Shown in pieces: positions 15,351-29,080 of a DNA stretch of 40,487 nt (its first letter is position 1; each line of letters starts with the position of its first letter). The stretch covers positions 1-40,487 of the forward strand of contig RECZ01000078.1 in NCBI GenBank assembly GCA_007693765.1. Direction: 5' to 3'. The notes under the pieces are model-generated. The model was not told where the DNA came from. It saw only the letters and a program-made list of their open reading frames with translations, and searched no databases. The DNA comes from Phycisphaerales bacterium (GTDB lineage: Bacteria; Planctomycetota; Phycisphaerae; Phycisphaerales; UBA1924). The position numbers and the translations under genes are program-made.

Positions 15351-16139
15351 TCAGGCGACGATGCTCACCAGCACCGCGTCGGCGGCGGTGCGCGCCGTGT
15401 AGGGCACGATCGCCAGGCGGACGCCCGCGGGGATCTCCACGCTCACAGGCGAGGCGCCGTGCCCACCGGAGGACTGGATCTGCGCGAGCGTGGCGCCGAT
15501 GCGCCCGTCGTCTTCGAGCACCACGAGGCGGTAGCCGCCGTCGATGGGCGCGAGCCCGCGGTGCAGGAGGTACGCGGCGTTCTTGTCGACGAGGAGCGAG
15601 GCCTGCGCAGCGCCGGGCGCGGGGTTCGACGATGCGGCGAAGGAGACGAGCGTGGCCTCCTGGCTCAGCATGGAGTCGAGGAAGCGGGCGCCGTAGGACT
15701 GCAGCACAGTCGTCAGCATGCCGCCCTCGGTCTCGGCGATCTGGATGCTGCGGAACTGGTCGGACACGCGGTGCACCGAGAAGCCCAGCACGATCGTGCC
15801 GGCGAGCAGCGCGATGCACGCCGCACGCCAGATCGGCGAGACGTTGCGCTGCAGCGCCACCGTGAAGGGGCCGACGCTGCGGGCGATCCGCTGCCGGGCC
15901 TCCGCGTCGCGGATGGCCGCCACGGCGTCGATCACCTTGCGCTTCAGGCCGGGCGGGGGCGGGACGTTGGGCAGGATGTCGTCGATGTCGGAGTGGCGCA
16001 GCATCTCGCGGCGGATCTGCGACTGCACCGCGGGCGCAGCGCGCTCGTACGCCTGTTCAAAGGCCTGACGCTCCTCATCGTCGAGGAGGTTGAGCACGTA
16101 CATGGAGGCTTGTTCGTAGAGTTCTCTTGTGCTGATCAT
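15351..16139 (-). CDS. Anti-sigma factor, RskA-like
   Basis: The protein has 262 residues. The N-terminal cytoplasmic part (LYEQASMYVLNLLDDEER, EQAYERAAPAV) matches the RskA-type anti-sigma N-terminus, which binds the ECF sigma factor without a zinc motif. One membrane helix is at about 103-122 (AACIALLAGTIVLGFSVHRV). The extracytoplasmic domain (about 125-262) is beta-rich and ends in PYTARTAADAVLVSIVA, as in RskA C-terminal domains. Its ATG overlaps the stop of the sigma gene in an ATGA (16136-16139), which suggests translational coupling of the pair. It presumably holds the sigma factor at the membrane until regulated proteolysis or another signal. Confidence 0.85.
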   Translation of the reverse strand: MISTRELYEQASMYVLNLLDDEERQAFEQAYERAAPAVQSQIRREMLRHSDIDDILPNVPPPPGLKRKVIDAVAAIRDAEARQRIARSVGPFTVALQRNVSPIWRAACIALLAGTIVLGFSVHRVSDQFRSIQIAETEGGMLTTVLQSYGARFLDSMLSQEATLVSFAASSNPAPGAAQASLLVDKNAAYLLHRGLAPIDGGYRLVVLEDDGRIGATLAQIQSSGGHGASPVSVEIPAGVRLAIVPYTARTAADAVLVSIVA

Positions 16140-16705
16140 GCCGCGAATTCCTCGCCTGCGCTGCGCTCTCTGAGGCGCACCAGCGCCCTGCTGAGAGCAG
16201 ATTTGATGGTCCCCAAGGGCTTGTTGAGCTCGATCCCGATCTGACGCAGCGTCTGCCCACCGAGGTAGGAACGGATGACCACCGTTCTCTGCAATTCGGG
16301 AAGCTGATCGATGCGTTTCATAAGTGCTTCGTACCGTTCGTCGTTTTCCATCCGGCCCGTCGGGTTCACCGGCTCGGCCGGCGTGGGCAGGGCCTCGTTG
16401 AGCGAGGAGGGCTTGATCCTCGCCTGCGCCCGCCGCATCCGGTCCACGAGGATCCGTCGCGAGAGCAGCATCACCCAAGTCACCAGCGCCGCCTTCTTCG
16501 GGTCGTAGCGCGATGCGGTTCGCCACAAACGAACGAAGATCTCCTGCACCGCGTCCTCGGCGTCGGCCCGAGTCGGCATGGCCTGATACGCCATCCGGTA
16601 CACCAGCGGGCCGAAGCGGTCGTACAGCTCGGAAATCGCGGACTCGTCATCCACGCTCACGCGCTGCATCAGCTCGAGATCGGCGTCGTTCTGTGACGCG
16701 CCCAT
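16136..16705 (-). CDS. ECF-family RNA polymerase sigma factor
   Basis: The protein has 189 residues from the ATG at 16705. Region 2 (about 25-95) contains ISELYDRFGPLVYRMAY, the DAEDAVQEIFVRLWR motif of sigma region 2.2, and WVMLLSRRILVDRMRR of regions 2.3-2.4. A linker rich in Pro and Glu follows. Region 4 (about 130-180) has LPELQRTVVIRSYLGG and the helix-turn-helix QTLRQIGIELNKPLGTIKSA. With the RskA-like partner it fits the SigK-type group. It starts divergently from the pseudopilin gene at 16946, which may be one of its targets. Confidence 0.9.
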   Translation of the reverse strand: MGASQNDADLELMQRVSVDDESAISELYDRFGPLVYRMAYQAMPTRADAEDAVQEIFVRLWRTASRYDPKKAALVTWVMLLSRRILVDRMRRAQARIKPSSLNEALPTPAEPVNPTGRMENDERYEALMKRIDQLPELQRTVVIRSYLGGQTLRQIGIELNKPLGTIKSALSRALVRLRERSAGEEFAA

Positions 16706-16945
16706 GGCTTCCGCCTCTCTGTCCGTTTACGTCGGCCGGGCTTTTTCTATGCCCATCATTCTACGTGCCTCACCCGCAAAGAGATGCGAAAATCTTCGAG
16801 GACCGTACATAATCCTACCATAAAATGGGGCCGATGGAACAAATGAATATGAATGTTCGGTTGTAAGGAGGGTGGGCACACGATAAAGTTCAGAGTGCCC
16901 ACAGGACCGACCCCGGACGGGGCCGTGTCAGGGAGGTGAGCTTCC
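16706..16945. promoter_or_regulatory. AT-rich divergent control region with a structured leader
   Basis: This 240-base gap separates the sigma factor (minus) and the pseudopilin (plus). From about 16735 to 16870 the base composition is far more AT-rich than anywhere else in the window. It contains GGAAC (16836-16840), a 17-base spacer, and CGGTTG (16858-16863), which fits an ECF-type promoter reading right. CATAAT at 16808-16813 could be a housekeeping -10. Downstream lies an inverted repeat, GTGGGCAC (16872-16879) with GTGCCCAC (16895-16902), in the presumed 5' leader. A strong Shine-Dalgarno GGGAGGTGA follows just before the GTG start. The promoter calls are by eye only. Confidence 0.5.
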
Positions 16946-17797
16946 GTGACGAAGACAACCCTAGGCGATCAACGTGCGACGCCCCGGCGTCTTGCCCATC
17001 GACGCAAGAACTCCTCACGCATGTCCTACCGCCGGCTCGCCGGCGGGTTCACGCTTCTTGATCTTTTGGTCTCGATCGTCGTCATCGGGCTGCTGCTCGC
17101 GATCGTGCTGCCGCTGCTCGCGCAGGCTTCTGAGGCCACGAAGCGCGTGGTCTGCCGCTCCAACGTCCGGCAGATCGGCATCACGCTGGCGCTGTACGCC
17201 GAATCGCACAACGGGCGCCTGCCCCAGAGCATCTACGCCACGGAGTACCAGCAGGGCCTCTTCATGCCGCAAGAGATGCTCCTCGTGCGCACGCCCGAAG
17301 CGCTCGATGGCTGGGACGGCCTCGGCCGCCTCTTCATCGAGGACTACATCGCCACGCCGCAGAGCTTCTACTGCCCCAGCCACCGCGCCGGCCACACCTT
17401 CGACGCGTACGAGTCCGCGTGGATCGACCCCGTCGACACCGAGATCGTCACCAACTACCACTACCGGGCCATACCCAGCATGGCCAACTACCTGTACGAC
17501 CTCGACCCCGGCATGGCGCTGATCGCCGACGGCATGCGCTCGATCTCTGATTACAACCACAAGATCGGCTCCAACGTGCTGCGTGCCGACCTCTCCGTAC
17601 GCTGGTTCGAGGACACCAACAGCACGCTCGCCTCCTCGATCCCGCTCGCCGTCGGCGACTCGAACGCCGATGTCAACGTCGCCTTGGCGTGGTGGGTGCT
17701 CGACACAGGTGAGAGCAACAGCTTCCCCGGCCTGCCGTGGTCGCCCAACCCCAACCACAACGCGCCCTCGGGGCTCTCCGCCAGGCTCGCCTGGTAA
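16946..17797 (+). CDS. Prepilin-type N-terminal methylation domain protein (pseudopilin)
   Basis: The protein has 283 residues from the GTG at 16946, chosen because GGGAGGTGA lies just upstream. A basic leader (RRLAGG) precedes the cleavage site G34|F35. The hydrophobic helix FTLLDLLVSIVVIGLLLAIV follows. The +5 residue is Asp (D39) instead of the usual Glu. The rest resembles the planctomycete DUF1559/type II secretion pseudopilin family, with CRSNVRQIGITLALYAE after the helix (about 70-90), a Cys-containing FYCPSHRAGHTF, and HKIGSNVLRADLSVRWF near the C-terminus, a diverged H-x9-DG region. These proteins are exported and processed by prepilin peptidase. It diverges from the ECF sigma gene and may depend on it. 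Confidence 0.85.
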   Translation: MTKTTLGDQRATPRRLAHRRKNSSRMSYRRLAGGFTLLDLLVSIVVIGLLLAIVLPLLAQASEATKRVVCRSNVRQIGITLALYAESHNGRLPQSIYATEYQQGLFMPQEMLLVRTPEALDGWDGLGRLFIEDYIATPQSFYCPSHRAGHTFDAYESAWIDPVDTEIVTNYHYRAIPSMANYLYDLDPGMALIADGMRSISDYNHKIGSNVLRADLSVRWFEDTNSTLASSIPLAVGDSNADVNVALAWWVLDTGESNSFPGLPWSPNPNHNAPSGLSARLAW

Positions 17798-17958
17798 GAC
17801 GCGCAGCCGCCGGTCGGTGGCGATCGCGCCTCGGGCGCCGTACATATCATCCAACTGCGAACCCGCACGGCCGCGATGCGTCAACGAACAGTGGCCCGAC
17901 GCCGTCGCCGCGCCCTGTCCACGCAACGCCAACCGCCCCAGCCGAGGAGCTCAACAGC

Positions 17959-18945
17959 ATGCCCATCAGCCCCCGCCACGCCGCCGCCGCCCTCGCGTCG
18001 ACGACGTTCATCGCCGCCGCCGCCCACGCGCAGCTCACGCCCGACCGCCTCTACTACGGCGTCAATCGCGCCATCCCCATGACCATCGAGGCGCCGCGCG
18101 ACATGGGCGGGGAGATCGAGATCGTCCTGCACCGCCACGGCGTCGACGAGCCCGTCGAGACCGCCAGCGCCGAGGCCGGACGCGTCGACCTCGCGGGCCT
18201 CTTCCCCGTGCTCTGGACCACCAGCGAGCACCGCGTGCTCTTCGCCCAGCTCCGCGTCGGCGGCGTGGAAGTCGGCCCGCCCGTCGTCCTCCAGCCCATG
18301 CTGACCCCCTCGCGCGCTGTGTCGCAGGCCGGCAGGATCTCCTGGCGCACCCCGCCCGCGCCCGTCTTCTCCGGCCTCCGCGCCTGGACAGACCGGCACA
18401 TCGTCCTCGAGACCAACCTCGGCGAGGTCGAGATCGCCCTCCGGCCCGATGAGGCGCCCAACACCGTCTACCACGTCCTCGGCCTCGTCGAAGGCGGCTT
18501 CTACACCGACATCATCTTCCACCGCGTCGTGCCCATGTCCGGATCCGGGCACCCCTTTGTCGTGCAGGCCGGCGACCCCACCGGGCGCGGCGACGGCGGG
18601 CCCGGCCAATTCATCGACCTCGAGAAGAGCGAGCTTCCACACGACTTCGGCGTCATGTCCATGGCCCGCACCAACGACCCCGACACCAACGGCTCCCAGT
18701 TCTTCCTCTGCCTCAGCCGCGAGGGAACCTCCTTCCTTGACGGCAACTACACCGCCTTCGCCCAGAGCGTCCGCGGCGCCGACACCATCGTCGCCCTCTC
18801 CCGCGTCGCCCTCCGCGACGAGCAGTCCGGGCGCCCCGTCGAGCCCCCCGTCATCCAACGCGCGTACACCACCCCCGCGCCCCCATTCAGCCAGCGCCCC
18901 GACCCCGTCTCCCGGCCCCAGGGCGACGCTGAAACGCCCCGCTGA
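17959..18945 (+). CDS. Secreted cyclophilin-type peptidyl-prolyl isomerase
   Basis: The protein has 328 residues from the ATG at 17959, with GAGGAG about 8 bases upstream. The signal peptide ends AAAHA|QL (about residue 22). Residues about 25-140 form an extra beta-rich N-terminal domain of unknown role. The cyclophilin domain (about 150-305) shows FHRVVP, QAGDPTGRGDGGPG, GVMSMART, NGSQFFLCL and LDGNYTAFA. The catalytic Arg of FHR and the QFF strand are present. An insertion, MSGSGHPF, sits between FHRV and the QAGD strand. The Pro-rich C-terminal tail is disordered. It probably folds or refolds exported proteins. Confidence 0.9.
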   Translation: MPISPRHAAAALASTTFIAAAAHAQLTPDRLYYGVNRAIPMTIEAPRDMGGEIEIVLHRHGVDEPVETASAEAGRVDLAGLFPVLWTTSEHRVLFAQLRVGGVEVGPPVVLQPMLTPSRAVSQAGRISWRTPPAPVFSGLRAWTDRHIVLETNLGEVEIALRPDEAPNTVYHVLGLVEGGFYTDIIFHRVVPMSGSGHPFVVQAGDPTGRGDGGPGQFIDLEKSELPHDFGVMSMARTNDPDTNGSQFFLCLSREGTSFLDGNYTAFAQSVRGADTIVALSRVALRDEQSGRPVEPPVIQRAYTTPAPPFSQRPDPVSRPQGDAETPR

Positions 18946-18962
18946 GGCCCGATCTCAGGCTT

Positions 18963-18979
18963 TTGCAACACAGTTGCGG
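18963..18979. promoter_or_regulatory. Palindromic operator candidate (possible Zur box)
   Basis: The sequence is TTGCAAC-ACA-GTTGCGG. GCAAC (18965-18969) and GTTGC (18973-18977) are perfect inverted arms around a 3-base centre. It lies just upstream of a TTGACC-N18-TAGAAC promoter-like pair (18988-19017) and ahead of four genes that look zinc-related. Fur-family regulators bind short palindromes of this size. The specific Zur assignment is inferred from the downstream genes, not from a known planctomycete consensus. Confidence 0.45.
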
Positions 18980-18987
18980 ATCCAACC

Positions 18988-19017
18988 TTGACCGGCGCAC
19001 GAATGGGGGGATAGAAC
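18988..19017 (+). promoter_or_regulatory. Candidate promoter for the His-rich/pseudopilin/all3515-like group
   Basis: TTGACC (18988-18993), an 18-base spacer and TAGAAC (19012-19017) resemble a housekeeping promoter. Transcription would start near 19024. That argues against the in-frame ATG at 19020 and for the ATG at 19047, which has AGGAG four bases upstream. The call was made by eye, and the -10 matches only 4 of 6 bases. Confidence 0.4.
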
Positions 19018-19046
19018 CAATGGTCCGCCGGGGACCCAGGAGCGGC

Positions 19047-19505
19047 ATGCGCAACCGACGCGACATCACGGTCAGGCAGGGTGTCGCACCCATGCTGCGC
19101 CGTGTTCCAAGCGTCTGTGTCGGAGCGTTGCTCTGGCTCTGCCTCGTCGCATTGGTGGCCCAGCCCGTCTTCCTGGCGGCGCACCGGCACGCCGCGCACA
19201 ACGACGCCCACGCCGCTTTGGCCATCGCCGAAGCGCCCGCACCGTCGTCCTGCGTTGCGCAGCACGATTGCGACAGCGCTCCCGAGCCCACGAGGCCCGG
19301 CCCCGACCACCATCACGAGCACGACGACGCCGACTGCGCCGTGTGCCATTACCTCGCCTCCAGCCGCGTAGCGCTGGTGCTCATCGCCGAGAACCCGGCC
19401 TCGACACCCGCTCTGTGCTGCGGCCTCGTGACACTCCCCGACGCCCCGGCCCTGCCGCGGCGCCTCGACACCCCGGCGCAGCCCCGCGCCCCCCCGATCG
19501 GCTGA
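19047..19505 (+). CDS. His-rich exported protein, candidate metal-binding
   Basis: The protein has 152 residues from the ATG at 19047. In-frame ATGs at 19020 and 19092 are alternatives. A hydrophobic export signal covers about 20-44 (VCVGALLWLCLVALVAQPVFLA). Two His clusters follow: HRHAAHNDAH (about 46-55) and DHHHEHDD (about 87-94). Directly after the second comes C97-x2-C100-H101 (DCAVCHYL). There is one more Cys pair, CC, near residue 122. The build resembles small His-rich periplasmic proteins of the DUF2946 kind, but I cannot assign it firmly. It is the first gene after the palindrome and precedes a pseudopilin and two all3515-like proteins. Confidence 0.65.
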   Translation: MRNRRDITVRQGVAPMLRRVPSVCVGALLWLCLVALVAQPVFLAAHRHAAHNDAHAALAIAEAPAPSSCVAQHDCDSAPEPTRPGPDHHHEHDDADCAVCHYLASSRVALVLIAENPASTPALCCGLVTLPDAPALPRRLDTPAQPRAPPIG

Positions 19506-19652
19506 TTGCGCTCCCCGTTTGTCCGACCTCTTGTTTCACGCAGGGTCGAGACGGGTCGACGCATTCGCCGCATCGTCTTTCAACGTCAACGATGGATCAC
19601 GCCCGCGTGCGCCGCCACAGAAGCGCACCCGAGGCGGAAAGGGCTTGCAGCC

Positions 19653-20513
19653 ATGCGCTCCCGCGCGTTCACACTGGTCGAGATGCTCGTCGTGGTGGCG
19701 GTGGTCGGGATCCTCATCGGTATCCTCCTCCCCACGCTCGGCGGCGCACGCGAGTCCGCACGGACCGCCGTGTGCGTCTCGAACATGCGCCAACTCGGCG
19801 TGGCGCACGGGCTGTTCATGCAGGCCAACGACGGGCAGATCATCGACGTGGGCCTCTCCCACGGCGGCGTCGGCAATGCCTCGGGCGCGTGGGTCAACAC
19901 GCTCCAGCGGTATCTCGGCGACCCCCTCAATGTGCGCTGCCCGGAGGACAGGAGCCCCCACTTCCTGCCCGACGAGATCACGCAATACGACGTTGACAAC
20001 GGCGACTTCGGCGGGGCGACCCCCGTCCCCGGCTCGACCGACCGCTTCCGACGCACCAGCTACGGCGCCAACAACTTAATCTCCGATTCTGCCGGGCTCG
20101 ATCAGCAAACGAGCGACCTACGCACCTACTTCAACAACATCGACCGCATCCGCCGCCCCGCGGCCATCGTCGCCTTCTTCGAGCTCGCCGAAACGGGTGA
20201 GTTCGCGGGCAGCGACCACGCCCATGTTGAGCAGTGGAGTCTCCCCGGCGTGCCGGTGCCACCAACGTTCGCCATCTCGCAAGCGTTGCGAAACGCCGAG
20301 TTGCACCAGCACGGCGGCGTTCCCCGGAAGGGGCTCCGCGGTGTCGATGCGGTCCGCGATCAAGCGACTCCCGCGCCATCTGATGATGTGTTGTCGTTGT
20401 TCTTCGATGCCCGTTCCAACTACGCCTTCCTCGACGGCAGCGTCCGAACCGCGGAGTTTCAAGAGGTCTACACAGACGTGGAGCGCAATCTCTTCGACCC
20501 GTCCCTGCAATGA
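19653..20513 (+). CDS. Prepilin-type N-terminal methylation domain protein with HxH motifs
   Basis: The protein has 286 residues from the ATG at 19653. The open frame extends upstream but adds only Arg-rich, non-signal sequence. Leader MRSRA|FTLVEM has Glu at +5, followed by LVVVAVVGILIGILLPTL, a canonical pseudopilin helix, and then CVSNMRQLGVAHGLFMQAND. In the C-terminal half there are DHAHVEQW (about residue 190) and ELHQHGG (about 220). Near the end is SNYAFLDGSVRTAEF, the planctomycete H-x9-DG-type region with the His replaced. The His motifs and its place between a His-rich protein and two all3515-like proteins suggest metal binding at the cell surface. That role is inferred. Confidence 0.8.
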   Translation: MRSRAFTLVEMLVVVAVVGILIGILLPTLGGARESARTAVCVSNMRQLGVAHGLFMQANDGQIIDVGLSHGGVGNASGAWVNTLQRYLGDPLNVRCPEDRSPHFLPDEITQYDVDNGDFGGATPVPGSTDRFRRTSYGANNLISDSAGLDQQTSDLRTYFNNIDRIRRPAAIVAFFELAETGEFAGSDHAHVEQWSLPGVPVPPTFAISQALRNAELHQHGGVPRKGLRGVDAVRDQATPAPSDDVLSLFFDARSNYAFLDGSVRTAEFQEVYTDVERNLFDPSLQ

Positions 20514-20575
20514 CGCGTTGCGCCCGACGAGGGCGCTCGCACCCTGCACACCACTTCGAAAGAGAGCGCTCTGAC

Positions 20576-21367
20576 ATGCCACGCTTCACCCGCCTCGCGA
20601 TCATCGCGTGCGCCGCCTTCTCCTTCGCCGCCCACGCGCAACTGCACTCCGGCGACATCATCCTGCACACCGACGAGGGGCGCATCCTCACCGGCATCGG
20701 CAACCCCGGCGCCGGAACGTTCGAGGAGCGGCAGATCTTCACCGCCATCCTCGGGACGTCCTTCCCCAATTTCACCAGCGACCCGGGCTTCGACTGCCTG
20801 CCCGGGACCTTCCCCGTGCCCAGCGCCAACGGGTTCAACGTGCTCGATGCGCTCTGGCACTGGGACGGCGAGACCTTCGTTCCCACCGCGGGCGAGAACA
20901 TGCGCATCAGCCTCGGCCCCGCGAACGTCACCACCTCCGACGGCTTCGTCGCGGGCTTCACCCTCAACGTAGCTTCCAACGGCTCGTGGCACCGCCACTA
21001 CTCCTTCTTCCTGCAGCAGGGCGCGGCCCCGGCCATCGCCGACGGCGTCTACCTCCTGCAGTTGGAGATCTACAACACCGGCGGCGCCCTCGAACCCACC
21101 GAGCCCATCTACATGCTCTTCAACCAGAACGCCTCCGCGTCGGACGTCGACGACGCTGCGGCGTGGGTGCAGGCCAACTTCATCGACGAGCCCGGGATCC
21201 CCGGCGACCTCAACGGCGACGGCGTCGTTGACTTCGCCGACCTCAGCATCGTCCTCAGCCAGTTCGGCATGGAGGGCGACGACCTCGATGGCGACGCCAA
21301 CGGCGACGGCGTCGTCGACTTCACAGACCTCAGCATCGTGCTGAGCAACTTCGGAACGGGCCTCTGA
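20576..21367 (+). CDS. all3515-like secreted protein with a dockerin-type C-terminus
   Basis: The protein has 263 residues from the ATG at 20576. The signal peptide ends AAHA|QLHSG (about residue 21). The body matches my memory of the all3515 family (described as Zur-repressed PEP-CTERM proteins in cyanobacteria): FNVLDALWHWDG, SDGFVAGFTLNV, the SWHRHYSFFL HxH motif, GVYLLQLEIY and FNQNASASDVDDAAAWVQ. In place of a PEP-CTERM tail, residues about 210-260 hold two dockerin-like calcium-binding repeats (GDLNGDGVVDFADLSIVL and DANGDGVVDFTDLSIVL). It is paralogous to the next gene. The likely role is a surface or periplasmic protein made under zinc limitation, by inference. Confidence 0.75.
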   Translation: MPRFTRLAIIACAAFSFAAHAQLHSGDIILHTDEGRILTGIGNPGAGTFEERQIFTAILGTSFPNFTSDPGFDCLPGTFPVPSANGFNVLDALWHWDGETFVPTAGENMRISLGPANVTTSDGFVAGFTLNVASNGSWHRHYSFFLQQGAAPAIADGVYLLQLEIYNTGGALEPTEPIYMLFNQNASASDVDDAAAWVQANFIDEPGIPGDLNGDGVVDFADLSIVLSQFGMEGDDLDGDANGDGVVDFTDLSIVLSNFGTGL

Positions 21368-21521
21368 TACGCCCACGCAACCCTTGATTCCTCCCGCGCT
21401 GCGCTCGTTGCGCACCGCGCTTCACATCCGGCGTCGCCGTGCGGAAGGCGCCGCCAAGCATTTGTTCGAGCTTCAACCAACACCCGCGCCACCGAGCGCA
21501 CCAGTTCCCAGGAGGAACGAC

Positions 21522-22241
21522 ATGAGCATCAAGCGACTCACCAGCCTCAGCATCCTCGCGGCCATCGCCTCCGGCGCAGCCGCCACCGCCGCCGCCGACC
21601 GCCACATCGGCATCGACGCCGTCGACGGCCGCCTCACCACCTTCAACTACCAGAGCGGCGTCGGCTACCTCAACACGCAGCGCGTCTTCACCAACATCTT
21701 CGACGCCGACCTCTTCTTCACCGACGACAACGGCACCAACATGCCCGGCGGCACGCTCGCCACCCCCGGCGCTGTGGGCTTCAACATCCTCGGCTCGCTT
21801 CTGGTGTGGGACTCGGGTCTGCAGAACTTCGTCAGCACCGACCACACCATCAACATCAGCGCCGGCCCCGCCTCGGTGGACACCGCCGACGGCTTCGTCG
21901 CCGGCTTCGGCACGAACGTGCGCGACGAGATCTCCCACCCCGACAACAGCGCCCAGTGGGGTCGTCACCACACCCACTTCGGCTACACCCTCAACGGACC
22001 CGAAGGCACGCCCAGCGACGGCATCTACCTGCTCAACCTCGAGTGGTGGTACGAGGCCGGCGACGGCAACCCCGTCTCCTACGACACCTCGCTGCCCTTC
22101 TGGACGGTCTTCGGCCTCAACGTTGATGACACCGATCTCCTGAACACGGCCCAGTGGGTGCGCGACAACGTCGTCCCCGCCCCCGGCGCCGCGGCCATCC
22201 TCGGCCTCGCCGCGCTGGCGGGCGTCCGCCGCCGTCGCTGA
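21522..22241 (+). CDS. all3515-like secreted protein with a PEP-CTERM-like sorting tail
   Basis: The protein has 239 residues from the ATG at 21522, with AGGAGG seven bases upstream. The signal peptide ends near ATAAA|DRH (about residue 25). It shares with the preceding gene FNILGSLLVWDS, TADGFVAGFGTNV, the HxH motif in WGRHHTHFGYTL, GIYLLNLEWW and LNTAQWVRDNV. The C-terminus, VPAPGAAAILGLAALAG followed by VRRRR, is a short PEP-CTERM-like signal: a Pro-rich motif, a hydrophobic stretch and a basic end. Such tails are thought to direct processing and surface sorting. It is the last gene before a strong terminator (22295-22328). The family and the zinc link are inferred as for its neighbour. 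Confidence 0.75.
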   Translation: MSIKRLTSLSILAAIASGAAATAAADRHIGIDAVDGRLTTFNYQSGVGYLNTQRVFTNIFDADLFFTDDNGTNMPGGTLATPGAVGFNILGSLLVWDSGLQNFVSTDHTINISAGPASVDTADGFVAGFGTNVRDEISHPDNSAQWGRHHTHFGYTLNGPEGTPSDGIYLLNLEWWYEAGDGNPVSYDTSLPFWTVFGLNVDDTDLLNTAQWVRDNVVPAPGAAAILGLAALAGVRRRR

Positions 22242-22294
22242 TTCAACATCGCCTTCCGCGGCCGCCCCCTCGGAGGAGACGGGTGGCCGTCCAC

Positions 22295-22328
22295 GCCCCG
22301 CGCCGCCCGCACGGCGCGGGGCTTTTTT
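22295..22328 (+). terminator. Intrinsic terminator after the all3515-like genes
   Basis: A perfect 11-bp stem has arms GCCCCGCGCCG (22295-22305) and CGGCGCGGGGC (22312-22322), with a 6-base loop. Six T residues follow (22323-22328). It lies 54 bases past the stop of the second all3515-like gene and marks the right end of the candidate zinc group. Confidence 0.9.
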
Positions 22329-22359
22329 GCGCGCACACTTCGGAGCAAACAGCGCCCGC

Positions 22360-24186
22360 CTACTCGTCGTCCTTCTTCTCTGCATCCCGATCGTTGCGAG
22401 AGCCACCCAGCAGGCCGCGCAGGGCCCGCCCCGCCTCGCCGGCGCGATCGCCCACGACGTCGCCCAGCCGGCGCTCCGCCTCCGCGCCGAGCCTGTTCCC
22501 GAGCTCGCGCGCGCCCGCCTTCACCAGCGCATCGGCGAACCCCTTGTCGTCGACGCCGATGCGCGGGTTGTCGAGCGGGCCGCGCAGCGAGACCGGGAAC
22601 GTGAGGTTGTTCACCGTCGAGGCGCCCACGCCGGGCATCGAGACCTCGGAATTGTTCAGCGTGAGTTGCAGGGGCATGTCGATCGCGCCCGCGTCCCACA
22701 CGCCGCTCGCCGCGACGCTCACCGTCCCGCCGCGCACCGGGCGCTGCCCGCCGATGCGCATGCCCGAGGCCACCTTGTCCACCGATAGATTGCGCAGGGC
22801 GAGGCTCAGGTCGTTGCGCCCGCCCGGCGTCGCCGACGCGGCGCCCAGGGCCACCGTCACGTCGATGTCGCCGGAGCGCGACTTCACGTGCACCCGCGGC
22901 GCCCCCTCGACCAGACGCGGGCTCGTCGAGACGTTCTGCGCCCGCACATCCAGCGGGTCGCCCTCGATCGCCGCCACGCGCACGCCCTCGGCCACGATCT
23001 CGCGCACCAGCAGCGTGGGCGAGCCCTCGACGAGGTGCGACGCCACCACCCGCGCGTAGCCCCGCGACTCGACCTCGCGCGCCAGGCGTTCGCGCAGCGT
23101 CTCACGCGTCGGCGCCCCGGCCGCGTCCTCGCCGCCGCTGGCGCGCTCGATCCACCGCCGCGCCTGCGCCAGGCGCTCCTTCCAGACGCGTGCATCCTCG
23201 AAATAGTCTTCGAGCGTCTTCTCGTCCTCGCGCGCCGGGGGCGGCTCGCGCGGCTCGGGCGCCCGACCCACGATCACCCCGCGGATCCGCCGCGCCTCGC
23301 CGCTGCTGGCCTCGATGGCCTCCACGCGGTCGATCGTCAGCCGCTTGCGCAGCAAGTCGGCGCCGCTGATGGCGAGTTCGACGCGATCGGCGCGGAACAG
23401 GTCTGTCTCTAGGGCGTTGGGGTCGGCCATCGCCAGCCCCTCCACGGTCATGCGGCCCTCGCGCAGGCTCAGGCTGGCGCTGCGCAGGTCCACCGTGGCG
23501 CCGTTGGCCCGCTCCAGACCGCGCTGCAGCGCCGCGGTGACGATCGGCTCACGCAGGAACCCCTGCACCACGATGATCAGCCCGACCAGGAGCAGTGCGA
23601 AGACCACGCCGATGGGTCGAACCGGGTTGCCTACCTTCTTCTGCAGCAGGTCCTCGTACGACCGCTTCCCCTTCTTCCCGCCGATAAACACGAACACCAG
23701 CGCCTTCACCCACCACTTGCTGGTGTACACGCGGTACTTCTCCGAGCCCTGCTCCATCGTCGCCATCTTCCGCCGGAACCCGGTCACCACCGCCACCAGG
23801 CCCACGCCGCAGAGCAGCCCGAACACCAGCCCCACGACCATCCCGCCCGTCGTCGCGTAGCGCTCGAACCCGAAGAGCGCCAGCACCGGGGCGTTGATCA
23901 TCGCCTTGAACAGCGGCTGCGTGGGCCCGTCCAGCAGCACGCGGCCGACCCCGAACGACACCGGCATCAGCGCCAGCGAGGCCAGCTTCGCGACCGCACC
24001 GGTGATCGTCGCCACGAACAGGTTGGCGTTGAGCACGATCAGCACCAGCAGCAGGAACAGGAACAGCCCTGGCCCCTGCACGAACCCCGGCACGAACCCC
24101 ATCATCGAGCCCAGCACGCACGCCAGCACGATCTGGAACGGCGTGGACTTGCCCCTGAGCAGCTTGCCGATCTTGCGGGTGATCAT
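22360..24186 (-). CDS. TIGR03546-like membrane protein fused to an AsmA-like domain
   Basis: The protein has 608 residues from the ATG at 24186. The first 160 residues, FQIVLACVLGSMMGFVPGF and then several helices to about 135, resemble the TIGR03546 membrane family. A further helix lies at about 205-225 (GVVFALLLVGLIIVVQGFL). After it comes an AsmA/TIGR03545-like beta-rich region (LRSASLSLREGRMTVEGLAM, FRADRVELAIS, LTIDRVEAIEA) interrupted by a charged coiled coil (about 315-370). The C-terminal part (about 450-540) again has the AsmA look (LRNLSVDKVASGM, MPLQLTLNNSEVSM, SLRGPLDNPRIGV). In other bacteria the two parts are, as I recall, adjacent genes. A role in lipid transfer or envelope upkeep is inferred. 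Confidence 0.65.
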   Translation of the reverse strand: MITRKIGKLLRGKSTPFQIVLACVLGSMMGFVPGFVQGPGLFLFLLLVLIVLNANLFVATITGAVAKLASLALMPVSFGVGRVLLDGPTQPLFKAMINAPVLALFGFERYATTGGMVVGLVFGLLCGVGLVAVVTGFRRKMATMEQGSEKYRVYTSKWWVKALVFVFIGGKKGKRSYEDLLQKKVGNPVRPIGVVFALLLVGLIIVVQGFLREPIVTAALQRGLERANGATVDLRSASLSLREGRMTVEGLAMADPNALETDLFRADRVELAISGADLLRKRLTIDRVEAIEASSGEARRIRGVIVGRAPEPREPPPAREDEKTLEDYFEDARVWKERLAQARRWIERASGGEDAAGAPTRETLRERLAREVESRGYARVVASHLVEGSPTLLVREIVAEGVRVAAIEGDPLDVRAQNVSTSPRLVEGAPRVHVKSRSGDIDVTVALGAASATPGGRNDLSLALRNLSVDKVASGMRIGGQRPVRGGTVSVAASGVWDAGAIDMPLQLTLNNSEVSMPGVGASTVNNLTFPVSLRGPLDNPRIGVDDKGFADALVKAGARELGNRLGAEAERRLGDVVGDRAGEAGRALRGLLGGSRNDRDAEKKDDE

Positions 24187-24590: not shown

Positions 24591-24791
24591 ATGCCCGAGA
24601 CCAACGCCCCCGCCGTCGCGACGACCGCCGCCGCCTGCCCCGAGTGCAACGCCGAGGTCGCCTTCGACCGCGCCCCGCGACGCCACGAGATCGCCCGCTG
24701 CCGCGCCTGCGCCGCGGAGCTCGAAGTCACCTCCACCGACCCCCTGAGCCTCGAACTCGCCCCCGAAGTGGAAGAAGACTGGGGCGAGTGA
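24591..24791 (+). CDS. lysW: Amino-group carrier protein LysW
   Basis: The protein has 66 residues from the ATG at 24591, with AGGAG about 9 bases upstream. A zinc ribbon is formed by C16/C19 (CPEC) and C37/C40 (CRAC), followed by AAELEVTSTDPLSLEL. The C-terminus is EEDWGE. The gamma-carboxyl of the terminal Glu is the point where LysX attaches alpha-aminoadipate or glutamate, so the substrate is carried through the pathway on this protein. The match in size, ribbon and tail is close to textbook. It is the first gene of the lysW-lysX-argC-lysZ-lysK group. Confidence 0.97.
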   Translation: MPETNAPAVATTAAACPECNAEVAFDRAPRRHEIARCRACAAELEVTSTDPLSLELAPEVEEDWGE

Positions 24792-24807
24792 ACCCCTCTT
24801 CCTCTTC

Positions 24808-24840
24808 GGTGGGACGGCTCTCCGAGCCGTCTCCCCACCA
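24808..24840. repeat. REP-like palindrome between lysW and lysX
   Basis: GGTGGGACGGCTC, a TCC loop and GAGCCGTCTCCCCACC form a near-perfect hairpin with one bulge. No T-run follows. Short palindromes of this kind, starting GGTGGGACGGCTC, look like dispersed repetitive elements, not gene-specific signals. It might still stabilise the mRNA or alter the lysW:lysX expression ratio. Confidence 0.5.
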
Positions 24841-24884
24841 CGCCCAAATCTCCATCCAGAAGCACACGCCAACGAGCACACCCC

Positions 24885-25805
24885 ATGCGCATCGCCTTCC
24901 TGCACACCCGCATCCGCGTCGAGGAACGCCTCCTGCTCGATGAACTCGAACGCCGCGGCGTCGAGATCGAACTCCTCCACGCGGACGAAGCGGCCCTCGA
25001 TATCACCGCCGACGCCCCGCCGCGCCCGGTCGACGCCCTCTTCGATCGCTGCCTGAGCAACACCAAGGCGTGCGCCATCGTGCGCGCGTTCACGTCGTGG
25101 GGCGTGCCCTGCGTGAACCCGCCCGAGGCGCTCGAGAACTGCGCCGACAAGGGGCGCACCACGGCCCTGCTCCGGCGCGCCGGCGTCCCCTCGCCGCGGA
25201 CGATCCTCGCCTTCTCCCCCGAGAGCGCGCTCGACGCGGCGGACGACCTCGGCTACCCCGTGGTGCTCAAGCCCGCCGTCGGTTCCTGGGGCCGCCTCGT
25301 CGCGCGACTGCGCGACCGCGACGCCCTCGAAGCGGTGCTCGAGCACAAGGCCACCCTCGGCGGCGTGCAGCACGGCGTGATCTACCTGCAGGAGCACGTC
25401 GACAAGCCCGGTCGCGACATCCGCGCCTTCGTCGTCGGCGGACGCACCCTCTGCGCCGTCGCCCGCTACAGCGAGCACTGGATCACCAACACCGCACGCG
25501 GCGGACGCACCGAGAACGTCCCCCTCACGCCCGAACTCGACGACCTCTGCGCCCGCGCCGCCCGCGCCGTCGACCCGTCCGACAGCGGAGATTCCGGTGG
25601 AACGAGTTCCGGGGGCGGCGCCGCGGCCCTCGCGATCGACATCCTCGAACACCCCGAGCGCGGCCCGCTCGTCAACGAGGTGAACGCCACCATGGAGTTC
25701 CGCAACTCCATCGCGCCCACTGGCGTGGACATCCCCGCGATGCTCGTCGAGCACGTGCTCGCCCGCGCCGAGGCCGGCGCCGGCGCACAGGGAGCCGCGG
25801 CGTGA
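24885..25805 (+). CDS. lysX: LysW-alpha-aminoadipate (or glutamate) ligase LysX
   Basis: The protein has 306 residues with an ATP-grasp fold. The N-terminal domain is MRIAFLHTRIRVEERLLLDEL. VDALFDRCLSNTK and WGVPCVNPPEALENCADKG follow. The ATP-binding part has GYPVVLKPAVGSWGRLVARL and GRDIRAFVVGGRTLCAVAR. The metal-binding end is VNEVNATMEFRNS. It joins the amino group of its substrate to the terminal Glu of LysW using ATP. Whether it prefers alpha-aminoadipate, glutamate or both is not settled by reading. Residues about 231-247 are a Ser/Gly/Asp-rich insert (SDSGDSGGTSSGGG) absent from typical LysX. It overlaps the next gene by four bases. Confidence 0.92.
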   Translation: MRIAFLHTRIRVEERLLLDELERRGVEIELLHADEAALDITADAPPRPVDALFDRCLSNTKACAIVRAFTSWGVPCVNPPEALENCADKGRTTALLRRAGVPSPRTILAFSPESALDAADDLGYPVVLKPAVGSWGRLVARLRDRDALEAVLEHKATLGGVQHGVIYLQEHVDKPGRDIRAFVVGGRTLCAVARYSEHWITNTARGGRTENVPLTPELDDLCARAARAVDPSDSGDSGGTSSGGGAAALAIDILEHPERGPLVNEVNATMEFRNSIAPTGVDIPAMLVEHVLARAEAGAGAQGAAA

Positions 25806-26833
25806 GCGTGCGCGTCGGCATCCTCGGCGGCAGCGGCTACACCGGGGGCGAACTGCTGCGCCTGCTCGTCGCGCACCCGGGGGCGGAGGTCGCGTGGGTC
25901 TCCTCGCGCGGGCGCGCCGGCTGGCCCGTGACCAGCGTCCACCCCAACCTGCGCTCCTTCACCGACCTCGCCTTCATCAACCCCGACGACGCGGAGCCCT
26001 GCGACGTCCTCTTCCTCTGCCTGCCCCACGGCGCCGCCGCGGGCGAGATCGAGCGCTACGCCGCCCTCGCCCACCGCGTGATCGACCTCTCCGCCGACTT
26101 CCGCCTGCGCGACGCCGCGGCGTACGAGCGGACGTACGGCGCAGCGCACCCCAACCCCGCGTGGCTCGACCGCTTCGTCTACGGCCTGCCCGAGGTCTCG
26201 CGCAAAGCGCTCCGCAACGCGCGCCTCGCCAGCGGCGTCGGCTGCAACGCCACCGCTGTCAACCTCGCGCTGCTGCCGCTCGCGCGCGCGGGGCTGATCG
26301 AGCGCGTCGTCGCGGACCTCAAGGTCGGCTCGTCCGAGGCGGGCGCCGAGCCCAGCGCCTCCGGCCACCACCCCGAACGCGCGGGCGCCGTGCGCACCTT
26401 CGCGCCCACCACGCACCGGCACGAGGCGGAGATCCGCCAGGCGCTGGGCGACGCCTTCGCCCTCCACTTCACCGCCACCGCCGTCGAGATGGTGCGCGGC
26501 GTGCTCGCCACCTGCCACGTCTTCACCACCCGGGAACTCACCGACCGCGACGTCTGGGGCCTCTACCGCGACGCCTACGAGAACGAACCCTTCGTGCGCA
26601 TCGTCAAGGAACGCCGCGGCCTCTACCGCTTCCCCGAGCCCAAGATCGTCGCGGGGACGAACTTCGCCGACGTCGGCTTCGAGTGCCAGCCCGGCACGAA
26701 CCGCGTCGTCGCGCTGTGCGCCATCGACAACCTGGGCAAGGGCGCCGCGGGTTCGGCGGTGCAGTCCATGAACCTCATGTGCAACCTCGACGAAACCGCC
26801 GCCCTCCGAACCCCCGGCCTCCACCCGGTGTGA
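25802..26833 (+). CDS. argC: LysW-linked semialdehyde-forming reductase (LysY/ArgC family)
   Basis: The protein has 343 residues from the GTG at 25802, which overlaps the lysX stop as GTGA. A GTG at 25808 is also possible. It shows the N-terminal GILGGSGYTGGELLRLL nucleotide-binding motif, LFLCLPHGAA, VIDLSADFRLRD, and VYGLPEVSR. The active-site Cys is in GVGCNATAVNL (about residue 142), and a catalytic-region His is in THRHEAEIRQ. It reduces the LysW-bound acyl phosphate made by LysZ to the semialdehyde. Within this cluster LysY is the probable role. It ends in a short palindrome, CGGTGT-GA-ACACCG (26826-26839). Confidence 0.92.
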   Translation: MSVRVGILGGSGYTGGELLRLLVAHPGAEVAWVSSRGRAGWPVTSVHPNLRSFTDLAFINPDDAEPCDVLFLCLPHGAAAGEIERYAALAHRVIDLSADFRLRDAAAYERTYGAAHPNPAWLDRFVYGLPEVSRKALRNARLASGVGCNATAVNLALLPLARAGLIERVVADLKVGSSEAGAEPSASGHHPERAGAVRTFAPTTHRHEAEIRQALGDAFALHFTATAVEMVRGVLATCHVFTTRELTDRDVWGLYRDAYENEPFVRIVKERRGLYRFPEPKIVAGTNFADVGFECQPGTNRVVALCAIDNLGKGAAGSAVQSMNLMCNLDETAALRTPGLHPV

Positions 26834-27023
26834 ACACCGTTTCCCTCCGGGCGCCACGTCCTCTACTCCGGGTGACACGTCTTCCCCCCTCCGGGTGCCA
26901 CGCCTCACCGCGCAGCGGGAGGCGTGCCGAATGCAACAGAGATGACCAAACGATGAACCGCAACAAACACGCAACCACTACGGACCTGAAGGTCCGTAGT
27001 GGCACCCGGAGAAGACCGACCAC
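26834..27023. repeat. Repeat element with a perfect 12-bp hairpin between argC/lysY and lysZ
   Basis: Three 16-base imperfect direct repeats of CTCCGGGTGCCACGTC type lie at 26845, 26866 and 26889. An inverted copy, GTGGCACCCGGAG, lies at 26999-27011. Between them is a perfect 12-bp hairpin, CCACTACGGACC (26975-26986) with GGTCCGTAGTGG (26991-27002), around a TGAA tetraloop. The arrangement looks like a composite REP/MITE-type insertion. The distal end supplies CCGGAGAAG ahead of the lysZ ATG, so its border may provide that gene's ribosome binding site. Confidence 0.6.
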
Positions 27024-27827
27024 ATGATCGTCATCAAGATCGGCGGCGCCGCGGGCGTCGGGTTCGAGCGGGTGTGCGACGACCTCGCGCCGCGCATCAT
27101 CGCGGGCGAGCGCATCGTCGTCGTTCACGGCGGATCGGACGAGACCAACCGCCTCGCCGAGCGCCTGGGCCGGCCGCCCCGCTTCATCACCTCGCCCTCG
27201 GGTCACACCAGCCGGCGCACCGACGCCGAGACCATCGAGATCTTTCAGATGGCCTGCTGCGGCGCCGTGAACAAGCGGCTGGTGCGCGAACTCCTGTCGC
27301 GCAACGTGAACGCCGTCGGCCTCTCTGGCGTCGACGGCGCCCTCTGGCGGGGCCGGCGCAAGCACGCGATCCGCGCCGTGGAGGACGGCGCCGTCACCGT
27401 CATCCGCGACGACTACACCGGCACGGTCGACCGCGTGAACGCCGACCTCCTGCGCACACTGCTCGACGCCGGCGCCACGCCCGTGCTCTCGCCCCCCGGC
27501 CTGAGCGAGGAGCACGAGCCCATCAACGTGGACGCCGACCGCGCCGCCGCCCGCACCGCGTGCGCCCTCGGCGCGCACACGCTGATAATCCTCTCCAACG
27601 TGCCCGGCCTGCTGCGCGCCTTCCCGAATGAATCCTCGCTCGTGCCCGAGGTCGCCCGCGCCGAACTCGATAGCGCCGAAGAACTGGCCCAGGGGCGCAT
27701 GAAGAAGAAGGTCCTCGCCGCCCGCGAGGCGATCGAGGGCGGCGTGGCGCGCGTCGTCCTCGCCGATGCCCGCGTGGACAACCCCGTGTCGCGCGCACTC
27801 GAAGGACGCGGCACGGTGATCGCATGA
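27024..27827 (+). CDS. lysZ: LysW-linked acyl kinase LysZ (ArgB family)
   Basis: The protein has 267 residues from the ATG at 27024, with GGAG about 12 bases upstream. It belongs to the amino-acid kinase fold: [11 protein letters not shown] at the N-terminus, [13 protein letters not shown] (about 34-46), [16 protein letters not shown] (about 99-114), [14 protein letters not shown] and [12 protein letters not shown]. It closes with [17 protein letters not shown], the ATP-binding Lys region. It phosphorylates the delta- or gamma-carboxyl of the amino acid held on LysW. The [15 protein letters not shown] form, where ArgB has HGGGPxI, is typical of LysZ. Its stop overlaps the lysK ATG (ATGA). Confidence 0.92.
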
Positions 27828-29080
27828 ACACCGCCCGCCCCCACACCGCCGGCCCAGCGCCCGCCGCCGCCCACAACGACGCCAACGCCGTGCGGCTCCT
27901 GCACGACCTCGTGGCGACGCCCAGCGTCTCGGGCGACGAACGCGCCGCCGTCGAATGTTTCGTCGAACACCTGCGCGCCCTCGGCTACCGCGCCCACATC
28001 GACGCCGCCGGCAACGCCGTGGGCGAACGCGGCGGCCCCGACGGCGCCGACATCCTCCTCCTCGGGCACATCGACACCGTCCCGGGGGACATCCCCGTGC
28101 GCATCGAAGGCGACACCCTCCACGGGCGCGGCAGCGTGGACGCCAAGGGCTCGCTCGCGGCGTTCGCGATCGCTGGCGCCCGCGCCGAACTCCCGCCGGG
28201 CGCGCGCCTCACCGTGATCGGCGCCGTCGGCGAAGAGGCGGACTCGCCCGGCGCCGCCTTCGTGCGCGACCACAGCGACCCGCCCATCGCGTGCGTCATC
28301 GGCGAGCCCAGCGGGTGGGACCGCTGCACGCTGGGCTACAAGGGGCGCCTCGTCGTCGAAGCCGCGTTCACCCGCCCCTGCGCGCACTCCTCCGGTCCCG
28401 ACGCCACCGCCCCCGAGCGCGCCGTCGCGTGGTGGTCAACGCTGCGCGACGACGCCGAAGCGCTCAACACCGCCCGCGCCGACGCCGGCGTGTTCGACAC
28501 GCTCCAGATCACCCTCCAGCGCATCGACACAACCTCCGACGGCCTCACCGAAACAACGACCGCCGAGATCGGCTACCGCCTGCCCACGTGGATCACCCCC
28601 GAAACCCTCGAATCCCGCCTCCGCACGATCTCTCTTCCCCCTCTCCCCCCGGGGGAGAGGCCGGGAGAGGGGGACGCACAATCAACAACCCGCGCACAAA
28701 CACACGCGCACACCACCACCGCCGCCCTTCCGGGCCACACCGGCGTCCCGACGCACCACCCGATCTCGTTGCGCTTCCGCGCCCACGCCCCCTGCGTGCG
28801 CACCGATCGTTCCAACGCGCTCGCCCGCGCCTTCTTCGGCGCCATCGCCGACGCCGGCGGGCGCCCCCGCGCCGTGGTCAAGACGGGCACATCGGACATG
28901 AACACCGTCGGCGCCCACTGGGGCTGCCCCATCGTCGCCTACGGCCCCGGCGACAGCGCCCTCGACCACACGCCCGAGGAGCGCCTCGACATCCCCGAGT
29001 ACCTGCGCTCCATCGACGTCCTCCGCCGCGCGATCGAATCGCTGGGCGCAGAGATCGCGACGGCGTCACGCTCGCGTTGA
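27824..29080 (+). CDS. lysK: LysW-lysine/ornithine hydrolase LysK (M20 peptidase family)
   Basis: The protein has 418 residues from the ATG at 27824. It releases lysine or ornithine from LysW. M20 metal-site motifs are [11 protein letters not shown] (about 83), [14 protein letters not shown] (about 105), [12 protein letters not shown] (about 134), VIGEPSGWD and, near the end, [11 protein letters not shown] and [10 protein letters not shown]. Typical LysK has about 350-370 residues. Here residues about 270-314 are extra ([16 protein letters not shown], then Thr/His/Ala-rich). The DNA for this insert starts with a palindromic repeat (28637-28673) read in frame. The catalytic motifs on both sides are intact, so the enzyme is probably active. 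It is the last gene of the cluster. Confidence 0.92.
28637..28673. repeat. REP-like palindrome inserted in frame in lysK
   Basis: CCCCCTCTCCC (28637-28647) is the exact reverse complement of GGGAGAGGGGG (28663-28673). A second pair, CCTCTCCCCC (28640-28649) with GGGGGAGAGG (28651-28660), nests inside. Its coding product is [13 protein letters not shown] relative with the same GGGAGAGGG core lies at 6205-6240. Confidence 0.65.

Follow-up and report, generated by a model that had tools for sequence, protein, structure and literature searches.

Genes and features of the locus

The window analysed here, a stretch of 40,487 nucleotides that makes up positions 1 to 40,487 of contig RECZ01000078.1 from a Phycisphaerales bacterium (assembly GCA_007693765.1), carries a cassette of four successive plus-strand genes, A, B, C and D, which encode a His-rich DUF2946-like protein, a prepilin-type protein (pseudopilin) and two related exported proteins, respectively (Table 1). 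A first-pass annotation of this DNA had described four plus-strand genes closed by a strong terminator and encoding proteins with His motifs; our gene calls, the hairpin at 22295-22328 and the presence of all the quoted motifs bear this out. It had also placed a palindrome upstream of the first gene. This palindrome exists at 18963-18979, but the TTG start then assigned to the first gene (18963) falls inside it, and the likely start of gene A is ATG 19092, with 19047 and 19020 as alternatives. Gene coordinates come from our own calling script rather than a standard gene finder, and signal peptides of the encoded proteins were assessed by eye. Additionally, the genome encodes two matches of the prepilin-peptidase family and two exosortase homologues, which are candidates to process B and D, respectively.

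Table 1. Coordinates of the cassette genes and of the features discussed in the text (positions of the window)
Feature	Coordinates	Strand	Basis
Palindromic box TTGCAACACAGTTGCGG, type 2 (TGCAACnnnGTTGCA), candidate Zur operator	18963..18979	.	11/12 fixed positions
Gene A, His-rich DUF2946-like leader protein (probable)	19092..19505	+	PF11162 match, CxxC and RAPP motifs
CAVC (CxxC) motif of A, presumed metal sensor	19335..19346	+	invariant in 13 aligned leaders
RAPP motif of A, presumed ribosome-arrest motif	19485..19496	+	PP invariant in 13 aligned leaders
A-B gap (147 nucleotides), presumed control region	19506..19652	+	long leader-to-next gaps across cassettes
Gene B, prepilin-type protein (pseudopilin)	19653..20513	+	PF07963, TIGR02532
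DHAHVEQW (DHxH...W) of B, presumed metal site	20214..20237	+	DHxH conserved in cassette pilins
Gene C, exported domain protein with C-terminal dockerin	20576..21367	+	36% identity to D; PF00404
HRH of C (H139, H141)	20990..20998	+	both His invariant in 12 aligned C-type sequences
Dockerin repeat pair of C	21200..21367	+	PF00404
Gene D, exported immunoglobulin-like (Ig-like) domain protein, PAPG...RRRR sorting-like tail	21522..22241	+	domain model
HHTH of D (H149, H150, H152)	21966..21977	+	alignment of 59 C/D domains
C-terminal tail of D, PAPGAAAILGLAALAGVRRRR	22176..22238	+	D-type relatives similarly laid out
Intrinsic terminator	22295..22328	+	11 G-C pairs, loop 6, T6

The cassette is conserved within Phycisphaerales

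Of 100 genomes from the same family, 62 contain relatives of D, the genome studied here among them. Across the phylum, a C/D profile matches 24 of 392 genomes, 8 of them from the same family, 13 from the same order, 1 from the same class and 2 from elsewhere; the lone same-class match is weak, and its locus yielded no C/D gene. The relatives are titled Phycisphaeraceae, Phycisphaerales or Planctomycetota bacterium, and all are metagenome genomes. The locus set used below comprises 86 loci with C/D from 80 genomes, after locus L190 had been dropped for want of a called C/D gene.

Within the Phycisphaerales relatives, the order pilin-C-D, with or without a preceding leader, recurs with variants, and because it does so in many genomes the arrangement goes beyond chance. 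In particular, a pilin adjoins C/D on the same strand at 75 of the 86 loci, and each of these pilins carries a DHxH motif (75/75), whereas the 11 loci that have no adjacent pilin include contig ends, gene-call misses and genuine absences. Gene-order conservation, which had been put forward earlier as a check on the locus, thus holds within the order, with the His-motif pseudopilin as a nearly constant member.

At two loci from another family of the phylum (L188 and L189), a DHxH pilin is followed by a remote C/D relative whose N-terminus is very His-rich. Several named relatives (L139 to L144) have sample labels that suggest soda-lake mats or sediments, environments in which free zinc is scarce.

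A palindromic box is shared by cassettes and zinc-class znuA promoters

When the upstream regions of 78 cassettes were searched for a common palindrome, tTGAgAATgcATTcTCAa (type 1) emerged with a likelihood score of 195, compared with at most 97 in 19 control sets of upstream regions from the same loci. A second type, TGCAACnnnGTTGCA, is prominent among the remaining cassettes. With leader starts allowed for, a box stands at 41 of 79 non-duplicate cassettes (31 type 1, 11 type 2, 1 both), compared with 9 of 575 control regions, at thresholds of 14 (type 1 matrix score) and 10/12 (type 2) that were chosen after the scores were known; the 79 loci of this count and the 78 of the motif search are those left of the 86 after near-duplicate or short upstream regions had been removed. 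The type 1 cassette count is partly circular because the type 1 position weight matrix (PWM1) was trained on cassette upstream regions, a circularity that does not extend to its application to znuA promoters. A single universal operator was considered and rejected: there are two box types, and they co-occur at just 1 of 79 loci.

The znuA promoters compared come from this genome, from genome G086 and from 22 genomes picked for a cassette box or box-like site, and are thus a non-random sample. ZnuA genes were classed by tblastn score against the two copies that this genome encodes, L085 (zinc) and L084 (manganese), the latter being so named because it lies beside an MntR-like gene recognised by eye; the two classes are clearly separate, two remote copies excepted. 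The box is present in 17 of the 20 zinc-class promoters (12 type 1, 5 type 2), which include that of a remote third relative (L231, 48 bits) and leave out L203, whose promoter is cut by a contig end. These promoters represent 19 genomes, 17 of which have the box, and in all 17 its type is that of the genome's own cassette. Type 2 boxes before the zinc-class znuA of four relatives score 11-12/12. No zinc-class promoter was obtained from G026, G046, G066, G339 or G431. For eight genomes the box type had been expected beforehand: six expectations held in the first scan (that for G013 at just 15.6), and with a uniform start estimate seven held and that for G070 failed. The link to zinc limitation drawn in the first-pass annotation is supported by this recurrence of the cassette box type at zinc-class znuA in 17 of 19 genomes, together with the zinc-related neighbours described below. 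Given the match with znuA, two short candidate operator sequences and the predictions that go with them are ready for the laboratory.

The same comparison bears on whether the box might be a general Fur-family iron box, or the box of another regulator, with a cassette that handles iron or manganese. Type 1 does resemble the general Fur-family box, and the regulators found in genome G446 and at loci L053 and L101 (see below) are assigned as FUR family only. However, the preference of the box for zinc-class promoters, set against its occurrence in 1 of 21 manganese-class promoters (G089, 10/12) with the classes named after this genome's own two ZnuA, makes an iron or manganese function very improbable.

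Zinc-related genes lie beside a subset of the cassettes

In G446, which belongs to the same order, one operon contains, in this order, a pilin, a C/D gene, the zinc exoprotein ZepA (All3515 in the cited part of PMC10957091), a FUR-family regulator, a DUF2946-like leader, a second pilin and a PEP-CTERM protein. Other cassettes neighbour genes for ZnuABC (G086) or COG0523 (G088), or a FUR gene a few genes off (G056, G339), and at 10 of 86 loci the cassette stands beside an ATP-binding cassette (ABC) ATPase, an FtsX permease and a DUF3299 protein. Proximity to znuABC and zur, which had been raised earlier as a point to check, is found in part: at least one marker (FUR, ZepA, znuABC, COG0523 or ABC/FtsX with DUF3299) occurs within six genes at 17 of 86 loci, but none near the cassette of the window. 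In agreement with the first-pass annotation, which had seen no znuABC or zur gene in the window, none of this genome's FUR-family or ZnuA-family matches is located on the window contig.

Counted gene by gene, seven marker kinds, recognised by BLAST against a small set of typical proteins, make up 30 of the 870 genes that lie no more than six genes from a cassette, versus 1 of 377 farther away (Fisher p 1.8e-4). FtsX permease and DUF3299 count as zinc markers only by their likeness to zrgB, as described in the cited part of PMC9820375, and by their neighbourhood; with both removed, the figures are 9 of 945 near and 0 of 377 far (p 0.048). DUF3299 has no match in the genome of the window, and the control genomes gave none either. 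As in the zinc importer ZrgABCDE of Vibrio, in which that source places zrgBC, a MacB/FtsX-type permease and an ATPase lie beside the cassette in ten relatives; unlike that system, the cassette of the window has no ATPase or MacB-like permease flagged beside it, and the DUF3299 protein is extra. Directly after znuB, this genome (L085:13231-13416) and G086 (L073_12) share a small conserved gene. In G086 the cassette comes after this gene, and in the genome studied here the contig ends soon after it.

Gene A probably encodes a metal-sensing leader

Gene A matches PF11162 (DUF2946) over nearly its full length (E 3e-4; 22.0 bits, cut-off 23.7). Two DUF2946 proteins, CruR of Bordetella (PMC9426467) and CutF of Rhodobacter (PMC9973294), are described in the cited portions of these papers as heading operons and sensing copper as nascent chains, with a CxxC or CxxxC motif and a C-terminal RAPP or proline-rich motif. 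In CruR, RAPP is needed, 45 residues lie between the motifs and a gap of 162 nucleotides precedes the next gene (PMC9426467). Gene A has a similar anatomy: CAVC and RAPP are 46 residues apart, RAPP stands 2 residues before the C-terminus, and the gene takes first place in an operon, here deduced from gene spacing, with a long gap after it.

This anatomy recurs across the cassettes. An upstream frame with CxxC and with R-x-PP near its end is present at 38 of 86 cassettes versus 5 of 711 control regions. The spacing from CxxC to RxPP, which was no criterion of the frame search, is 44-48 in all 38 leaders, and R[AG]PP lies close to the stop in 35 of them. The leaders are mostly His-rich; CxxC and PP are invariant in an alignment of 13, of which 8 match DUF2946 at E<=0.1 (best E 2.7e-6). 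In line with a leader, the gap to the next gene has a median of 124 nucleotides, versus 56 for the remaining gaps of the cassettes. The CruR paper, in its cited part, mentions a few Planctomycetes members of DUF2946 (PMC9426467).

Because the fixed CxxC-RxPP spacing, the R[AG]PP near the stop and the long following gap match CruR, gene A is probably a metal-sensing leader of the CruR/CutF type rather than a capture protein. The first-pass annotation had counted it among a metal-capture set, a role that the DUF2946 anatomy explains less well. Alternatively, gene A could encode an ordinary exported His-rich zinc-binding protein with no regulatory function. Its N-terminus is signal-like by eye, it has two His clusters, and its length differs among copies, all of which would suit such a protein; yet a fixed spacing, an R[AG]PP by the stop in 35 of 38 cases and a long gap, all as in CruR, render this alternative unlikely. 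An RNA element in the A-B gap was also considered and rejected: the fold is unremarkable (z -0.72), and Rfam gave no match over 18900-22400 at gathering scores.

Unlike CruR and CutF, gene A appears to head a zinc-linked rather than a copper-linked operon, and the leaders of the cassettes carry additional His clusters and stand behind a Zur-type box in 18 of 36 cases. Whether the system might nevertheless serve copper, with a DUF2946 leader that senses this metal and His-motif proteins that capture or detoxify it, turns on the same features. The two leaders of this family that have been studied, CruR and CutF, do respond to copper according to the cited portions of their descriptions. Against a copper role, the box is common to the cassette and zinc-class znuA, genes for ZepA, ZnuABC and COG0523 adjoin a few cassettes, and the leaders here are mostly His-rich; we regard it as distinctly improbable. 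According to the cited part of the CutF paper, DUF2946 members are not all copper-specific (PMC9973294). As a caution, a Zur study of Caulobacter, in the part cited, has DUF2946 genes among the lowered rather than the raised genes (PMC4176598).

Gene B is a pseudopilin with a conserved DHxH motif

The prepilin N-terminus of B scores above cut-off with both PF07963 (26.9 bits, cut-off 21.2) and TIGR02532 (24 bits, cut-off 16.3). Its motif, FAGSDHAHVEQW, contains the DHxH that is found in 60 of 60 cassette pilins of our first locus set. Among the other pilins at these loci, 1 of 15 has it, and this single exception (L093_11) itself belongs to the cassette region of G446. The earlier description of an HxH pseudopilin is thus confirmed by both the prepilin models and the conservation of the motif. 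B shares a prepilin N-terminus and a partial DUF1559 match with the planctomycete H-X9-DG/DUF1559 prepilins; unlike these, it remains under the family cut-offs (PF07596, 16.5 versus 23.3 bits; TIGR04294, 13.9 versus 19 bits) and has a DHxH...W motif that is rare in the other pilins examined.

The cassette pilins of G013 and G070, which represent two genera, carry a complete FUR-family regulator as an in-frame fusion, giving proteins of 398 and 393 residues. Cleavage of such a FUR-prepilin fusion by prepilin peptidase would free a cytoplasmic regulator. The fusions lie at L053:10049-11245 (minus strand) and L101:2486-3667 (minus strand), where the pilin may instead have an internal start.

C and D form a family separate from ZepA

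C and D are 36% identical to each other. C has a dockerin match from residue 209 (PF00404, 23.2 bits, cut-off 22.9) and stays under the cut-off of the NCBIfam model dockerin_GC (18.9 versus 29 bits), and the PAPG...RRRR tail of D scores 11.8 bits with VPLPA-CTERM (cut-off 25.35). Across relatives, C-type tails are mostly dockerin-like pairs and D-type tails are basic and sorting-like. In an alignment of 59 C/D domains (D numbering), every sequence has H152 (59 of 59), His occupies position 150 in 46 sequences and Asp in 13, and at position 28 Asp is found in 54 and His in 5.

Two of the four proteins had earlier been likened to the cyanobacterial all3515 family. The corresponding model NF040463 (all3515/ZepA; cut-off 75 bits), whose search had been set as the check, gives C and D no match even at E<=10, whereas a planctomycete ZepA (L090) used as positive control scores 272.9 bits. 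This ZepA was located with a sequence query that, across 392 genomes of the phylum, matched 2, the match to one being partial. Likewise, hhalign of the 59 C/D domains against this single ZepA yields a probability of 0.5% (E 0.13). The HxH of C and D lies near residues 139-152, and the ZepA His site, H-X2-9-H-F/Y-H in the cited part of PMC10957091, has no counterpart in their N-terminal third. Membership of C and D in all3515 was therefore rejected, and the suggested link fails because neither NF040463 nor the profile comparison gives a signal. At the level of sequence, C and D form a separate family with an invariant His, and homology to ZepA is undetectable.

Several general features are nevertheless alike: ZepA and the C/D proteins are exported, have a His cluster and a Zur-type box upstream and, in the case of D, a sorting-like tail, and an Ig-like beta-sandwich is predicted for both ZepA (cited part of PMC10957091) and D (modelled here). 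Beyond their position outside NF040463 and the different place of the His motif in the chain, C and D differ from ZepA in having a pseudopilin as a near-constant partner, and C carries a dockerin in place of a PEP-CTERM tail.

The model of the D domain, made with 11 sequences, has a predicted local distance difference test (pLDDT) score of 93 and a predicted template modelling (pTM) score of 0.87, and is mostly beta with one C-terminal helix. Its matches in the PDB are Ig-like domains of pili and adhesins (best Foldseek E 4.7e-3, best Z 7.7); since these are only middling, we claim D neither as a relative of them nor as a new fold. This likeness, together with the calcium-type dockerin on C, would suit a substitute or structural surface layer, in which Zur swaps surface proteins under zinc starvation, no metal is captured, and the His residues serve the structure or, with the dockerin, bind calcium. 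However, the invariant H152, the D/H at 28, the H/D at 150 and the separate DHxH of the pilin look like metal ligands, and such residues occur in two unrelated proteins of one operon, so that a purely structural layer appears improbable.

A putative zinc-starvation surface module

Taken together, we consider it fairly probable that the four genes form a single operon within the Zur regulon, by which Phycisphaerales respond to zinc starvation, and specify a surface module that holds zinc, joined to a nascent-chain sensor. The genes are probably switched on together with the zinc importer. A zinc function is retained not for likeness to all3515 but for the sharing of the box with znuA, the neighbouring genes and the conserved cassette. 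In the proposed sequence of events, Zur would leave the box when zinc is scarce, and the operon would be transcribed. Nascent A would then read metal through its CxxC and His cluster and arrest the ribosome at RAPP, deciding the expression of the rest of the operon, a mechanism borrowed from CruR and CutF. B would act as a pseudopilin with an extracytoplasmic DHxH site, and C and D as twin surface proteins with an HxH site, bearing a dockerin and an exosortase-type tail, respectively. We infer that the cassette proteins capture zinc at the surface: B, C and D would bind it outside the inner membrane and hand it inward, where it would end at ZnuABC or, in some relatives, at the neighbouring FtsX-type ABC unit.

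A number of observations weigh against this proposal. By the thresholds used, 38 of 79 cassettes have no box and 48 of 86 no leader, and 69 of 86 loci, the window included, have no marker gene within six genes. The box of this genome's own znuA (L085) is weak (10/12), a score equalled by the manganese-class promoter of G089; in G070 a box precedes the cassette but not the zinc-class znuA; and the zinc-class znuA of G029 scores 13.0, under the threshold of 14. Neither box type is present in the six zur-like gene promoters scanned. Furthermore, DUF2946 leaders have been studied for copper, as the cited parts of PMC9426467 and PMC9973294 describe, and the structure model of gene B is poor (pLDDT 38) and unusable for placing its His residues.

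A more far-reaching version, which we put forward tentatively and hold to be doubtful, is pseudopilus-based zinc scavenging in Phycisphaerales. It would combine a pseudopilin with a DHxH...W zinc site, paired zinc-holding proteins and dual control by Zur and a zinc leader, and in some lineages Zur would be the cytoplasmic head of a prepilin, freed by prepilin peptidase. If such a device exists, its leader would be the first arrest peptide to read zinc, a DUF2946 protein whose metal had changed from copper to zinc.

Zur-regulated extracellular handling of zinc is already known, acquisition of zinc outside the cell being described chiefly for small zincophores and ZepA, and parts of the cassette may be categorically new. 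In the open-access literature, covered as titles and abstract starts and with subscription papers and preprints outside this scope, we found no zinc-linked pseudopilin cassette and no DUF2946 leader of a zinc operon in planctomycetes. With a pilin-like member in a zinc-starvation module, one of the numerous prepilin-like proteins that planctomycetes encode would gain a role open to experiment, and a DUF2946 leader in the zinc regulon would take metal sensing by nascent chains beyond copper.

Other observations around the cassettes

At loci L041, L053 and L070, from three genomes, a conserved phage-like gene run (clusters c11-c16, with capsid/portal order judged by eye) lies beside the cassette. 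At L066, L067, L069, L044 and L049, the region upstream of the cassette repeatedly contains a PAS-LuxR regulator and a LOG-family gene. In the window itself, a sigma factor, a second pilin and a cyclophilin gene occupy 15351-18945, upstream of the cassette, and a similar set precedes the cassette of G040 (L063). Farther downstream, at 24591-29080, LysW-like, LysX-like and ArgC-like genes make up, by eye, a LysW-type cluster for arginine/lysine synthesis.

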